Source: Pseudanabaena mucicola FACHB-723 (GTDB taxonomy: Bacteria > Cyanobacteriota > Cyanobacteriia > Pseudanabaenales > Pseudanabaenaceae). Taken from it: a stretch of DNA of 64,000 bases. This document shows, one piece after another, positions 20,266-25,838 of this stretch. Numbering within the stretch: the first letter of the stretch is position 1; every line of letters begins with the position of its first letter. The notes under the pieces are model-generated. The model searched no databases and had not been told where the DNA came from. It was given only the letters and a program-made list of their open reading frames with translations. The position numbers and the translations under genes are program-made. Location: the NCBI RefSeq assembly GCF_014696385.1, contig NZ_JACJQB010000014.1, positions 1-64,000 of the forward strand. Direction: 5' to 3'.

Positions 20266-21420
20266 CTAGTTACGGATTTGCACAGGCATAAGCAAATAAG
20301 TCATTTTGGTGGCTCCAATCGGTACAAGCACCGCAGGACTGGTCGGATTATTCATCTGAATTTGAATTTCATTGCTAGGTAATGCCTTCAGACCATCCAA
20401 CAAATATTTGACATTAAACGCAATTTCCACGTCTTCGCCTGAAATTTGAGCAGGTAAAGATTCACGTCCTGCTGCCACATCAGGAGCTTCTACGGACAGG
20501 GAAATTTCTTGACCTGTAGAGTCAATCGAGATTTTGACAATATTATTTTTTTGATCAGCCAAAACCGCAATTCTCTCCAGCGCTGACAAAAATAACTTAC
20601 GCTCTAGGGTAACTTGACGCTCAAAACGATTGGGAATCAATTGGCGATAGTTGGGATAGGAGCCATCAAGTAAACGGGAAATCAAAATTTGATTAGCGCT
20701 CTGGAAAATCATATTGGCGCGGTCAAATTTAACGGCGATCGCACCTTCAGTTTGCTGATTGAGCATCCTTTCTAGCTCCCGCAAAGCCCGTGCGGGAATA
20801 GTTACTTCCAGATTTGTAGTCACGGTATCCCCAGTTACAGGCGGTTCATCAGCATCTAAAAAGCCTGTCTGCACCACTGACAGACGATGCCCATCAGTAG
20901 CCGCAAACTCTAAACAATCATTGTTTGCCGTCAAATGCACCCCCGTCAGAATTCTCTTAGTTTCGTCAGCAGAGGTGGCAAACAAAGTCGATGACAAGCC
21001 ACTGAGCATCGATTCAACAGGCAAGTAGGTGGTTTCACCATCTTCGCCAATTTGAGGCAATTCGGGAAACTCCTCCACAGGTAGACCATGCATTTGGTAA
21101 CGACCTGAACCACAGACAATCGATACCATCGTGTTATCGCGCTCTACACTGATGGTGATGTCTTCATCGGGCAACTTGGAAACGATATCATTGAGCAGTT
21201 TAGCAGGCAGCGTAATTGATCCCGCTTCCACAACTTGAGCAGGAAAGGAAACCTGAATCCCCAAATTCAGATCGAAGGCAGTCATACCAAGGCTTTGGCT
21301 GGAGCTATCAGCATCAAGGCGAATATTTGCCAAAATCGGGTGGGTGGGACGAGATGCGACCGCACGACCGACAAGGGCAAGGTTAGCAGCAAGTTGGTTT
21401 TGAGGGCAGACTAGTCGCAT
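20266..21420 (-). CDS. dnaN: DNA polymerase III beta sliding clamp
   Basis: The 384-residue protein is the ring-shaped processivity clamp that tethers polymerase III to DNA. Three clamp domains are recognisable from MRLVCPQNQLAANLALVGRA at the start, TDGHRLSVVQ in the second domain, and the closing YLLMPVQIRN at the extreme C-terminus. The length is standard. It is transcribed away from the putative origin just upstream, an arrangement known in other cyanobacteria. Confidence 0.95.
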   Translation of the reverse strand: MRLVCPQNQLAANLALVGRAVASRPTHPILANIRLDADSSSQSLGMTAFDLNLGIQVSFPAQVVEAGSITLPAKLLNDIVSKLPDEDITISVERDNTMVSIVCGSGRYQMHGLPVEEFPELPQIGEDGETTYLPVESMLSGLSSTLFATSADETKRILTGVHLTANNDCLEFAATDGHRLSVVQTGFLDADEPPVTGDTVTTNLEVTIPARALRELERMLNQQTEGAIAVKFDRANMIFQSANQILISRLLDGSYPNYRQLIPNRFERQVTLERKLFLSALERIAVLADQKNNIVKISIDSTGQEISLSVEAPDVAAGRESLPAQISGEDVEIAFNVKYLLDGLKALPSNEIQIQMNNPTSPAVLVPIGATKMTYLLMPVQIRN

Positions 21421-21539: not shown

Positions 21540-22260
21540 ATGAATTGACTAAGTTGACAATATCGCAATCAAAAATTCTTTCTGGAAGGTTGGGCTAGAT
21601 AAAAAAGATTTGAGAAGAGATTTATTGAGCAGGTTTTTCGGAATAGAAATTTCAGGAGTTAATTTTAAAATTGATTTTATTGAAATTTGATGTATTCCAA
21701 TTTGTCTAAAATTTTTCAGGTTTCCCCAAAATTGATTTTTCAAGTATTGCCCAAAAATGAATTTTTTTAATGAAGTCTTTTAGCCAGAATTTTTTATGAA
21801 TGACTTTGCTTTGCTTTTCAGTTTGTTTTTTACGATTTGTTTTTCAACTTTGTGGCAACCAATCATAACATCGTTGGAAATTTTTGAACCAAAAAAATCA
21901 AAAAATACGAATTTCTATTTTCATTTTTTTTTCGTTCGATCTAATAATTACTATTTAAAGAATAAAAGATCTTGAATAGTAGTAGTAGGGGCTGTGGAAA
22001 ATGTGGAAAACTCTAAAAAATGTATATTGAATAATGCTTACAGAGATTTTTGCCTGTGGAAAACCCTGTGGAAAAAGTGGCCACTTTTCCACAGGGTATA
22101 AATACCTATTAAAAGTTTTCCACATTTTCCACAAAGTTATCCCCAAAAAGTAGCTAGTTATCCACAGGAAGTTAATAGTTATCCACAGGTTTTCCACAGG
22201 CAAAAACTCTATATCTGGAGTTATCCACAGGCAAGGTAAATAAAGTTGTCCAAAAAAATC
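21540..22260. other. oriC: probable chromosome replication origin (oriC) with DnaA-box array
   Basis: The 1170-bp gap between dnaN and the Psb32 gene holds 11 perfect DnaA boxes in 240 bp. Four TGTGGAAAA copies (21993, 22002, 22055, 22067) point left. Four TTTTCCACA copies (22085, 22116, 22125, 22190) and three TTATCCACA copies (22158, 22179, 22221) point right. A one-mismatch box lies at 22137. TTTTCCACA is the box form usual in cyanobacteria. A very AT-rich stretch (about 21550-21990) on the dnaN side could be the unwinding element. Flanking genes point away from the array. Positions 22261-22590 are AT-rich with nothing else recognisable. Confidence 0.88.
22064..22096. repeat. palindrome at the centre of the DnaA-box array
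   Basis: The arm ending in GTGG at 22080 is mirrored by the arm starting CCAC at 22081. They match over 16 positions, with one extra A in the left arm. Each arm contains one DnaA box, so the two boxes face each other across a GGCC centre. All boxes to the left share one orientation and all to the right share the other. Confidence 0.85.
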
Positions 22261-22590
22261 GCCTAAAATTCAGTTGTTGAGCCTTAACAATACTTAGCAA
22301 TAGTCAAACTAAATGATTTTTATAGGAGTGAAGAAGCTAGAGATTGAGGGCGTTTTTTGATGTTTTAGCTTTGGAGGATTGATGACATTGCGATCGCAAA
22401 GCCAAAAAATATAACAAAAATATAAAATTATACCTAAAAAATCTTGCTTATTTGTCGAGATATTTGCCGATAATTGGGATCAATTAGTAAAAAATTTCTG
22501 CGTTTCCTTGCTGATTGATATAGTAGTGGGGCAGCCTGAGAATGTTTGGCTTGCTGTAAATACAGATTTAGAATATAGGTTTAATAAGTT

Positions 22591-23382: not shown

Positions 23383-23421
23383 ATAGAGATTTTCAAAAGT
23401 GACACTTTTGAAAATCTCTAT
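23383..23421. terminator. 19-bp hairpin between convergent genes
   Basis: The arms 23383-23401 and 23403-23421 pair exactly around one base. The right arm overlaps the last codon of the convergent 806-residue gene. It resembles the second hairpin at 38976-39020 in sequence (both contain the run AAAAGTG and its complement). Confidence 0.7.
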
Positions 23422-25838
23422 GGTTCATCAAAATCGATGTCCTGTGCTAGATTTGGCGGCGTAACTGCGCGAGTGACTCTGACTTTATGGCTCTCTCTTT
23501 GAGTATGCGATTCAATCGCAATTGCTTCAAAGGCAACATCAATACTGCTGAGGGGAATAGAGATATTGGTACGAGTTTCAATGAATTCGGCATTAGGTAT
23601 GGTACTAAAGTCCAGTAGCCATCGAGGGCCATCTACAATCATTCTCGTTTGTAAATCTTTAATCCAGAACTTCACAAAGAATTTGGACTGGAGTGCAGGT
23701 AGACGCACGGTTACTGACATGGGCGTACCTGAGATGATTTCACCTGTAGGAACAATGATTTCAGGCACAGGAATTGGTTCTTGATCGGGCAGTACGGGGG
23801 AGGATGACTCTTGGACATTGCGAATAGTTTTAGCAGTTTCTGACAAGTTAGAAACTGTCAAGTTTTGACTGGATAAGCCACTAATTGGGAAGGTGTTAGG
23901 ATCAACAGTCTCTTCCCAGACGTATTCATTGAGCATCAGATCGCTAAGATCTGGCTCAGAACTGAGCAATCGATCAAGTTCTTGATCTAGTTCCACATCT
24001 AATTTGGCAAGACTTGTTAATTCCTCTGTATTAATCAGAGCATTGTTATCTGAGTCAATCAGAGGCATATTTAAATTGCTAGCTTGTGCCTCTGCATCCA
24101 ACAAAGGATCAACAGGAAAAGTATCTAATAATAGTTCTTCCGTGCGCTGGCTAGCTTTTTGGGCGGCGATTGCATCGGCAGATAGGGTTTGCAATTTAGT
24201 GAGAAATCGATTGTTACGGGGCGGCTCATTTCCAGTCTGTTTGAAGTTTGGTAAGAGATTATTGCTAGGCTGAGTAATTTCTAAACTGGGTTGCGCTAAA
24301 ATTTCTTCATAGTTTTGTGGAAGCTCTTCTTCAAAGCTGTACATTAATTCTGGTTCTTCAGAATCTATATCTAAGGACAGTTGAATATTCTGGTCGCTCA
24401 GCGTCGAGTCAATTTCTTCCTGTGGAAAACTATCAATTTCTTCCTCGAAATAATTGGAATTTATGGGCGTTGTTTCTGCTGTGACAGCTTTCTTTTGGAT
24501 CGTCTTTTTTAGTGGTGGTAAGGGAGGTAATGATAAAAATGTTCTAGGTGTTTGAAGCTGTAAATCATCTCCTGACGATGATTTTGGCTTATTTGAGGGT
24601 AAGGGAGGCAGGCTAAGTGCAGGTGTTGTTTTTGGTTTGCCCGATCGATTTTCCGTTGGCTCGATGGTGATATTTGTAGCCTGTGGAAAACCCTGTGGAA
24701 ATTGTGGGAAACTCTCAGAATTGCTAGCTGCATCAATTAATTTTTGCTCTTCTTGAATTTGTTTTTCTTGGGTTTGAACTTCTTTAATTAGTTCTGGTAA
24801 AACCCGCGATGCAGGATAGGAAACTGCAATTGCCTGTTGGGTAATGAATAGATCTTGATATTGTTGAAAGTCTTTCTGTGGATGGATTTGCACCTCACCA
24901 ATCAAAACTTGCACTTCTGATGGTGGTGGGACGATAATTTGATAGTTAAAGGAAATTGTACCTGTGCTGGGATTCCGTTCACCCAAATCTGCGATCGCAA
25001 ATCGTTTGTTAATAATCACATCAAGGGTTTGTGGATTTTTAAGTGTTACTTCCACTTCTCCCTTAGTATAAATCTCTCCCGTGAGATTGAAGCTGTTATC
25101 GGGATTGACGATATATTGAGGTTGATGCAGACGCAATAAAATGCGCGGCTGACGAGATATTTCTTCAGTTTCTAGATTTTGGTAATTATCATCTAATTCA
25201 TCATTTCCCGAAGAACTTCCATCAGTTAAATTCTCATCTTCGTCTTCTTCCTCAAAGATGGCAAATTCCTCAAACATTGACTGCACAAGTTCTGTCGATC
25301 TTTGTTCAGCAATATCCAAAATTGGAGAGCTGTAGGTGACAGTCTTTTGCTCAGGTTGCTCTATTCCTAACGTATTTGTGGCTAGAGTCGGTTCGCTTTC
25401 CGCAGAAGTCTCTACGTCTTCTTCAGATTCAGTCTCAATATATTGCCAATCTGAACCAAAATCTGAAGATACGGGAATGACATCAAACTTAACTGTGGCT
25501 TTCCATGCAGGGGCGATACTTGCGGATTCACTTCCCGATTCTGTCTCAGATTCGGCAGCCAGACAGTCAATTTGCCATAGCCCTGCGACAAAGTTGGTGT
25601 AGGGCATCACGATCACTAGTCCGTCATGGCTGATGCGTTTGACCAGTTTTTGTTGCAAAGGTTGATGCCGCACATCGGCGAGAGGACGATATGCGATCGC
25701 AATTCCCACCAGTGCATTTGCCAAAGCAGAGCGTGCCGCAAGTCTATATTGTCCTTCCAAAATCTCGACGGTTGGAGATTCTAGCGGCAACCAAGACTTG
25801 TCACCTTTGCGTTGTAGCAAAAACTCCCAGTTTTCCAT
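23418..25838 (-). CDS. large acidic protein of unknown function
   Basis: I do not recognise this 806-residue protein. Residues 1 to about 125 and the last 110 look folded and beta-rich. The C-terminal part (VTVRLPALQSKFFVKFWIKD, then WLLDFSTIP) could be an immunoglobulin-like or sugar-binding sheet. Another beta block lies at about 225-330 (RILLRLHQPQYIVNPDNSF). The regions between are long, acidic and Ser/Pro/Gln-rich, so probably disordered. There is no signal peptide or membrane segment. Two DnaA-box-like sites fall inside the gene near 24680. It is co-oriented toward the origin region and ends in a shared hairpin. Confidence 0.7.
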   Translation of the reverse strand: MENWEFLLQRKGDKSWLPLESPTVEILEGQYRLAARSALANALVGIAIAYRPLADVRHQPLQQKLVKRISHDGLVIVMPYTNFVAGLWQIDCLAAESETESGSESASIAPAWKATVKFDVIPVSSDFGSDWQYIETESEEDVETSAESEPTLATNTLGIEQPEQKTVTYSSPILDIAEQRSTELVQSMFEEFAIFEEEDEDENLTDGSSSGNDELDDNYQNLETEEISRQPRILLRLHQPQYIVNPDNSFNLTGEIYTKGEVEVTLKNPQTLDVIINKRFAIADLGERNPSTGTISFNYQIIVPPPSEVQVLIGEVQIHPQKDFQQYQDLFITQQAIAVSYPASRVLPELIKEVQTQEKQIQEEQKLIDAASNSESFPQFPQGFPQATNITIEPTENRSGKPKTTPALSLPPLPSNKPKSSSGDDLQLQTPRTFLSLPPLPPLKKTIQKKAVTAETTPINSNYFEEEIDSFPQEEIDSTLSDQNIQLSLDIDSEEPELMYSFEEELPQNYEEILAQPSLEITQPSNNLLPNFKQTGNEPPRNNRFLTKLQTLSADAIAAQKASQRTEELLLDTFPVDPLLDAEAQASNLNMPLIDSDNNALINTEELTSLAKLDVELDQELDRLLSSEPDLSDLMLNEYVWEETVDPNTFPISGLSSQNLTVSNLSETAKTIRNVQESSSPVLPDQEPIPVPEIIVPTGEIISGTPMSVTVRLPALQSKFFVKFWIKDLQTRMIVDGPRWLLDFSTIPNAEFIETRTNISIPLSSIDVAFEAIAIESHTQRESHKVRVTRAVTPPNLAQDIDFDEP

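Follow-up and report, generated by a model that had tools for sequence, protein, structure and literature searches.

Gene context and organization of the DnaA box array

The 64-kb stretch of DNA analysed here, referred to as the window, carries the sliding clamp gene dnaN and, to the right of it, an array of DnaA boxes whose first member lies 573 bp from the dnaN start (Table 1). The encoded DnaN is 91-97% identical to the DnaN of 18 mostly Pseudanabaena genomes, and the genome also holds an intact dnaA on contig C78, a 506-aa open frame with a PF00308 match (E = 3.4e-68). Cyanobacterial oriCs usually adjoin dnaN. The array comprises 11 perfect boxes (TTWTCCACA) spanning 237 bp, four of them on the minus strand in a left block (21993, 22002, 22055 and 22067) and seven on the plus strand in a right block (22085, 22116, 22125, 22158, 22179, 22190 and 22221), with a twelfth box containing one mismatch, TTATCCCCA, at 22137 on the plus strand. 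Since only 98 perfect boxes occur in the 3.96-Mb genome, the clustering is beyond chance, 0.006 boxes being expected in 237 bp against 11 observed (Poisson P ~7e-33), and the array, with 11 of the 98, constitutes the densest cluster of the genome. A clean 4/7 split of orientations has a chance probability of 2/330 = 0.006, a figure computed on the window sequence alone; this type of split has also been seen in relatives.

The original prediction had described four and seven perfect boxes in opposed orientation, and all 11 were recovered where it had placed them. The 21993/22002 and 22116/22125 boxes do abut with no gap, and the array does adjoin both dnaN (21420 to 20266, minus strand) and an AT-rich stretch (78% AT over 21875-21990). 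The two blocks meet at a pair of inverted arms, 22063-22075 and 22085-22097, each 13 bp long and matching perfectly, on either side of a 9-bp spacer, AGTGGCCAC; the innermost boxes of the two blocks form an inverted pair, or dyad.

Table 1. Features of the dnaN-proximal array in the window.
Feature	Coordinates	Strand	Remarks
dnaN, sliding clamp	20266-21420	-	384-aa ORF with all three DNA_pol3_beta domains
AT-rich stretch beside the trio, probable DNA unwinding element (DUE)	21878-21987		
DnaA-trio, four-fold TAG	21977-21988	-	TAGTAGTAGTAG on the plus strand, CTACTACTACTA on the box strand; position kept in most related loci
GC cluster, GCCC on the box strand	21989-21992	-	Between boxes and trio; conserved
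Two abutting perfect DnaA boxes, putative tandem boxes of the basal unwinding system	21993-22010	-	
DnaA box paired in tandem with dyad box 22067	22055-22063	-	12 bp start to start
Near-palindrome, 13-bp perfect arms and 9-bp spacer	22063-22097		Box arms shared with relatives, spacer not shared
Left-hand DnaA box of the central dyad	22067-22075	-	
Right-hand DnaA box of the central dyad	22085-22093	+	
GTA-N4-TAC palindrome, GTATAAATAC	22096-22105		Conserved; exactly 2 bp from the dyad box in 46/58 loci
Two abutting right-block DnaA boxes	22116-22133	+	Box 22125 alone out of helical phase
One-mismatch DnaA box, TTATCCCCA	22137-22145	+	In helical phase
Four DnaA boxes (22158, 22179, 22190, 22221)	22158-22229	+	In helical phase with 22085; same offsets in relatives

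A predicted basal unwinding system in the left block

On the box strand, the sequence at the outer end of the left block is TTTTCCACA-TTTTCCACA-GCCC-CTACTACTACTA-TTCAAGATCTTTTATTC, and the block holds the complete order of a basal unwinding system (BUS), with tandem boxes followed by a GC cluster, a DnaA-trio and AT-rich DNA. A BUS has been defined as having three or more 3'-NAN-5' triplets no farther than 16 bp from a DnaA box (PMC8287927); the window has four, CTACTACTACTA, beginning 4 bp past the abutting boxes. Of all 100-bp stretches in the window, only one is less stable than 21878-21977 in the adjoining AT-rich DNA. The original account mentioned neither this trio (21977-21988) nor the way in which the right-block boxes are phased on the helix.

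Helical phasing of the right block

Relative to the dyad box, the boxes of the right block occur at offsets of 31, 40, 52, 73, 94, 105 and 136 bp, and only the one at 40 bp is off a shared helical face. At a period of 10.5 bp the boxes reach a coherence of 0.93-0.94 (P = 0.002 with perfect boxes only, P = 0.0003 once the single-mismatch box is added); because several periods were examined, these values are mildly overstated. The same offsets occur in Pseudanabaena relatives. When the window was inspected for a right-hand trio, no three consecutive triplets (3'-NAN-5') were found after box 22085, nor was a GC cluster plus trio found at the right end of the array, and in relatives the trio occurs on the dnaN side only. 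The unwinding module (trio and AT-rich DNA) thus appears, from this arrangement, to be confined to the left block. A second very unstable AT-rich stretch lies on the other side of the array at 22398-22497, ahead of a gene encoding a TPM-domain protein.

Conservation of the layout in related cyanobacteria

Starting from 80 dnaN loci and from genomes found by pattern, 73 loci with the core were collected, 70 of which remained after three duplicates had been dropped. Among these 70, the dyad spacing is 18 or 19 bp start to start, with 17 bp in one locus, and the other distances of the core are nearly fixed as well, the tandem partner being placed at 11 or 12 bp, the BUS boxes at 64-67 bp and 9 bp beyond, and the trio at about 88 bp. 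The conservation of the tandem and BUS boxes is partly built in, because both were used to find loci, and that of the dyad is built in for loci from L084 on, because these were mostly fetched by a dyad pattern. A dyad partner was no requirement for the 52 loci, the window among them, that came in solely through dnaN; 40 of these have one, with no more than a single mismatch. No locus was selected for its far-block orientation, for a GTA-N4-TAC site or for a trio. Across the 70 loci, 257 perfect boxes beyond the centre have the opposed orientation and 7 do not, and the near side has none that is opposed; comparison of box orientation upstream of dnaN in related genomes, a check that the original prediction had itself proposed, therefore finds the switch to be conserved.

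A pattern joining dyad and tandem partner gave exactly one match in each of 49 genomes (32 genera, 15 families) out of 386, and its reversed control gave none in the same 386; the central inverted pair, with a gap of 9-10 bp, is accordingly found in 15 cyanobacterial families. A GTA-N4-TAC site exactly 2 bp from the dyad recurs outside the Pseudanabaena-like group in 23 of 34 loci, and its inner bases vary by lineage (GTATTTATAC, GTATAAATAC and GTATAATTAC in dnaN orientation). The site recognized by NtcA is GTA-N8-TAC, and NtcA was dropped as a candidate factor on account of this difference in spacing.

The near-palindrome noted in the original prediction stands only in part. Its 13-bp perfect arms are real and the inverted box pair is conserved, but the palindromic spacer is peculiar to the window: relatives read ctagccact, ctagccagt, ccccccct and the like, and none has the GTGGCCAC of the window, so that the spacer was rejected as a conserved feature. 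Some relatives' spacers keep short arms, for example AACT/AGTT. A numerical measure of palindromicity was not usable, since the window itself scores only 0.25, its palindrome being one base off centre. The long palindrome as such is incidental, the inverted box pair being the conserved part.

A genome from another class of the phylum (G018) carries opposed left boxes, the tandem pair, a BUS and a trio without the dyad partner, and the small genomes of family f20 show a reduced version of the layout. Matches to a TTCCACA-trio pattern in G129, G131, G058, G095, G133 and G040 lie outside box clusters and were discarded as chance. In some Nostoc loci (L078:36-73 and L080), the dyad core occurs more than 2 kb upstream of dnaN, core and gene being separated.

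Trio loss in Nostocaceae-like genomes

The trio is found in 0 of 23 dyad-bearing loci of family f7 versus 13 of 17 in other families, a count which does not sample independent events, because one ancestral loss may explain all the f7 cases. In another two of the 17, L167 and L169, the trio is either interrupted or placed next to a degenerate box. Family f7 is Nostocaceae-like, as its locus L092 matches the Cylindrospermum locus L059, and dnaA has been kept in all 14 f7 genomes checked. Replication in Nostoc PCC 7120 has been reported to be independent of DnaA-oriC (PMC7198777), and the loss of the trio in f7 fits that report. In the window and in all Pseudanabaena-like relatives seen, trio and tandem boxes are intact.

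Other box arrays

Two isolated perfect boxes on the minus strand (24421-24429 and 24682-24690) lie within an ORF at 23418-25838, about 2.3 kb from the putative origin. Outside the window, a second array at G000:C4:68688-68750 (L082:2689-2751) contains four boxes in one direction at offsets of 0, 21, 42 and 54, with neither trio nor opposed boxes, between protoporphyrinogen-oxidase-like and NfeD-like genes. A three-box array with 21-bp spacing is present in most of 23 Pseudanabaena genomes searched, mostly apart from the oriC locus. The G000 array is a candidate titration or DnaA-control site of the datA/DARS kind. In two other families, one-way arrays of three boxes at 20-21 bp occur just downstream of guaA (L155:1728-1777 and L217:1501-1550) and are possibly its counterpart.

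GC skew

The genome consists of 94 contigs, and skew was sampled in congeners, in 44 stretches of one scaffold and 40 of a complete genome (G346). In the latter, with about 17% of the genome sampled, the arms defined by dnaN have a mean skew of +0.019 versus -0.001 (p = 0.03), and the best two-arm centre falls about 0.5 Mb from dnaN, with the cumulative minimum of the sampled stretches about 0.5-0.6 Mb away. The congener scaffold shows a shallow skew, and a gene-strand test on the 40 stretches of the complete congener gave no signal. Disturbed skew has been described in many cyanobacteria (PMC7198777). GC skew in these close relatives is too weak to serve as proof of an origin.

Origin assignment and alternative explanations

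The array is very probably a DnaA-dependent oriC, from which a Pseudanabaena-type cyanobacterium would replicate its chromosome. The sequence criteria other than GC skew, namely the box cluster, the AT-rich element, the dnaN neighbour, dnaA and the BUS, agree with the oriC put forward in the original prediction, and sequence by itself is no proof of use, because some cyanobacteria with dnaA do not use DnaA-oriC (PMC7198777). At such an origin, DnaA would bind the perfect boxes of the central dyad and assemble both ways. To the left, a head-to-tail filament would span box 22055 and the 22002/21993 pair, followed by the GC cluster, and capture the single-stranded TAG trios, a capture predicted to open the AT-rich DNA toward dnaN. 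To the right, a second, opposed assembly would form on the boxes sharing one helical face and may help timing, looping or loading of a second helicase, like the right half of E. coli oriC. Loading of two DnaA filaments in opposite directions is established elsewhere and, by analogy, possible in the window.

It is unlikely that the array is a relic or a regulatory element, bound by DnaA but serving to control dnaN or to titrate the protein, with replication initiated at another site or at multiple sites, a situation that may apply to Nostoc. Weak GC skew would suit this explanation, as would the Nostocaceae-like genomes that keep dyad and dnaA without the trio, given the DnaA-oriC-independent replication of Nostoc PCC 7120 (PMC7198777); against it, the very parts lost in those genomes, trio and tandem boxes, are intact in the window and in its Pseudanabaena-like relatives, and 11 perfect boxes have been maintained. 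The persistence of the dyad after loss of the trio would also be compatible with the pair acting inside the origin like the inverted boxes of DARS, which in E. coli give head-to-head contacts (PMC10316083) and would here reset the nucleotide state of DnaA. We consider this quite improbable, since the fixed distance between dyad and unwinding boxes in trio-bearing lineages suggests that the two have a joint role.

The strong form of the idea in the original prediction, with a complete opening module on either side of the dyad and hence bidirectional DNA opening and helicase loading from the centre, is very improbable. The opposed blocks, the further unstable stretch on the right and the GTA-N4-TAC site, AT-rich and conserved, that follows the right dyad box would all be compatible with it, but in the window no run of three triplets follows that box and the right end is without GC cluster plus trio, and the trio of relatives is on the dnaN side only. 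A single DnaA-dependent origin, with its unwinding module on the dnaN side, remains the preferred reading.

Comparison with known systems and implications

No description of the fixed dyad, the phasing, the GTA-N4-TAC site or the trio-less dyad of Nostocaceae-like genomes was found in a text search of an open-access collection of papers. It may be proposed, tentatively and with more doubt than confidence, that cyanobacterial origins share an ancient orisome plan which has not been formulated before, consisting of a dyad with a fixed 9-10 bp gap, a flanking GTA-N4-TAC factor site, a trio arm and an opposed, helically phased arm; the role of the dyad would be separable from unwinding, because the dyad persists in Nostocaceae-like genomes that have lost the trio, and loss of the trio would mark DnaA-independent replication. 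If true, this would provide a lineage-wide blueprint with nearly fixed distances, turning the annotation "box cluster near dnaN" into a testable machine. The presence or absence of the trio would then be a sequence mark predicting which cyanobacteria still depend on DnaA-oriC, and the GTA-N4-TAC site would hint at a further, putative origin-binding factor.

Cyanobacterial oriCs have been described as TTTTCCACA boxes in the intergenic region at the dnaN start, and the window resembles in this respect S. elongatus PCC 7942, Cyanothece 51142 and the DoriC entries (PMC4674748), although Cyanothece differs in being credited with only three boxes. The likeness to S. elongatus extends further, its oriC being located near dnaN, bound by DnaA and dependent on it (PMC7198777), with a functional BUS that its own DnaA opens in vitro (PMC8287927). 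The BUS of B. subtilis has tandem boxes, GC cluster, TAG-type trios and AT-rich DNA in the same order (PMC8287927, PMC6669920), whereas the boxes of the window abut without a gap, with the dyad and the opposed block following inside 75 bp. A box at a distance is active in B. subtilis in either orientation and in a helically phased manner. The T. maritima oriC likewise has TAG repeats that are bound single-stranded and an inverted box inside the array (PMC10316083), but its inverted boxes work best at a 4-bp gap, with head-to-tail contacts, in contrast to the gap of 9-10 bp of the window type.

The opposed orientation switch to which the original prediction had drawn attention is real and conserved, but as a concept it is not new, since opposed blocks are found in E. 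coli oriC. There, as in the window, left boxes face the DUE and right boxes point away (PMC10380432, PMC10316083), an orientation which was verified on the K-12 sequence, and two opposed ATP-DnaA pentamers are formed, the right one enhancing helicase loading (PMC10380432, PMC10316083). In E. coli, by contrast, a strong inverted pair is missing from the centre, weak boxes are numerous, the left half contains an IHF site, and TAG trios form no clear run there.
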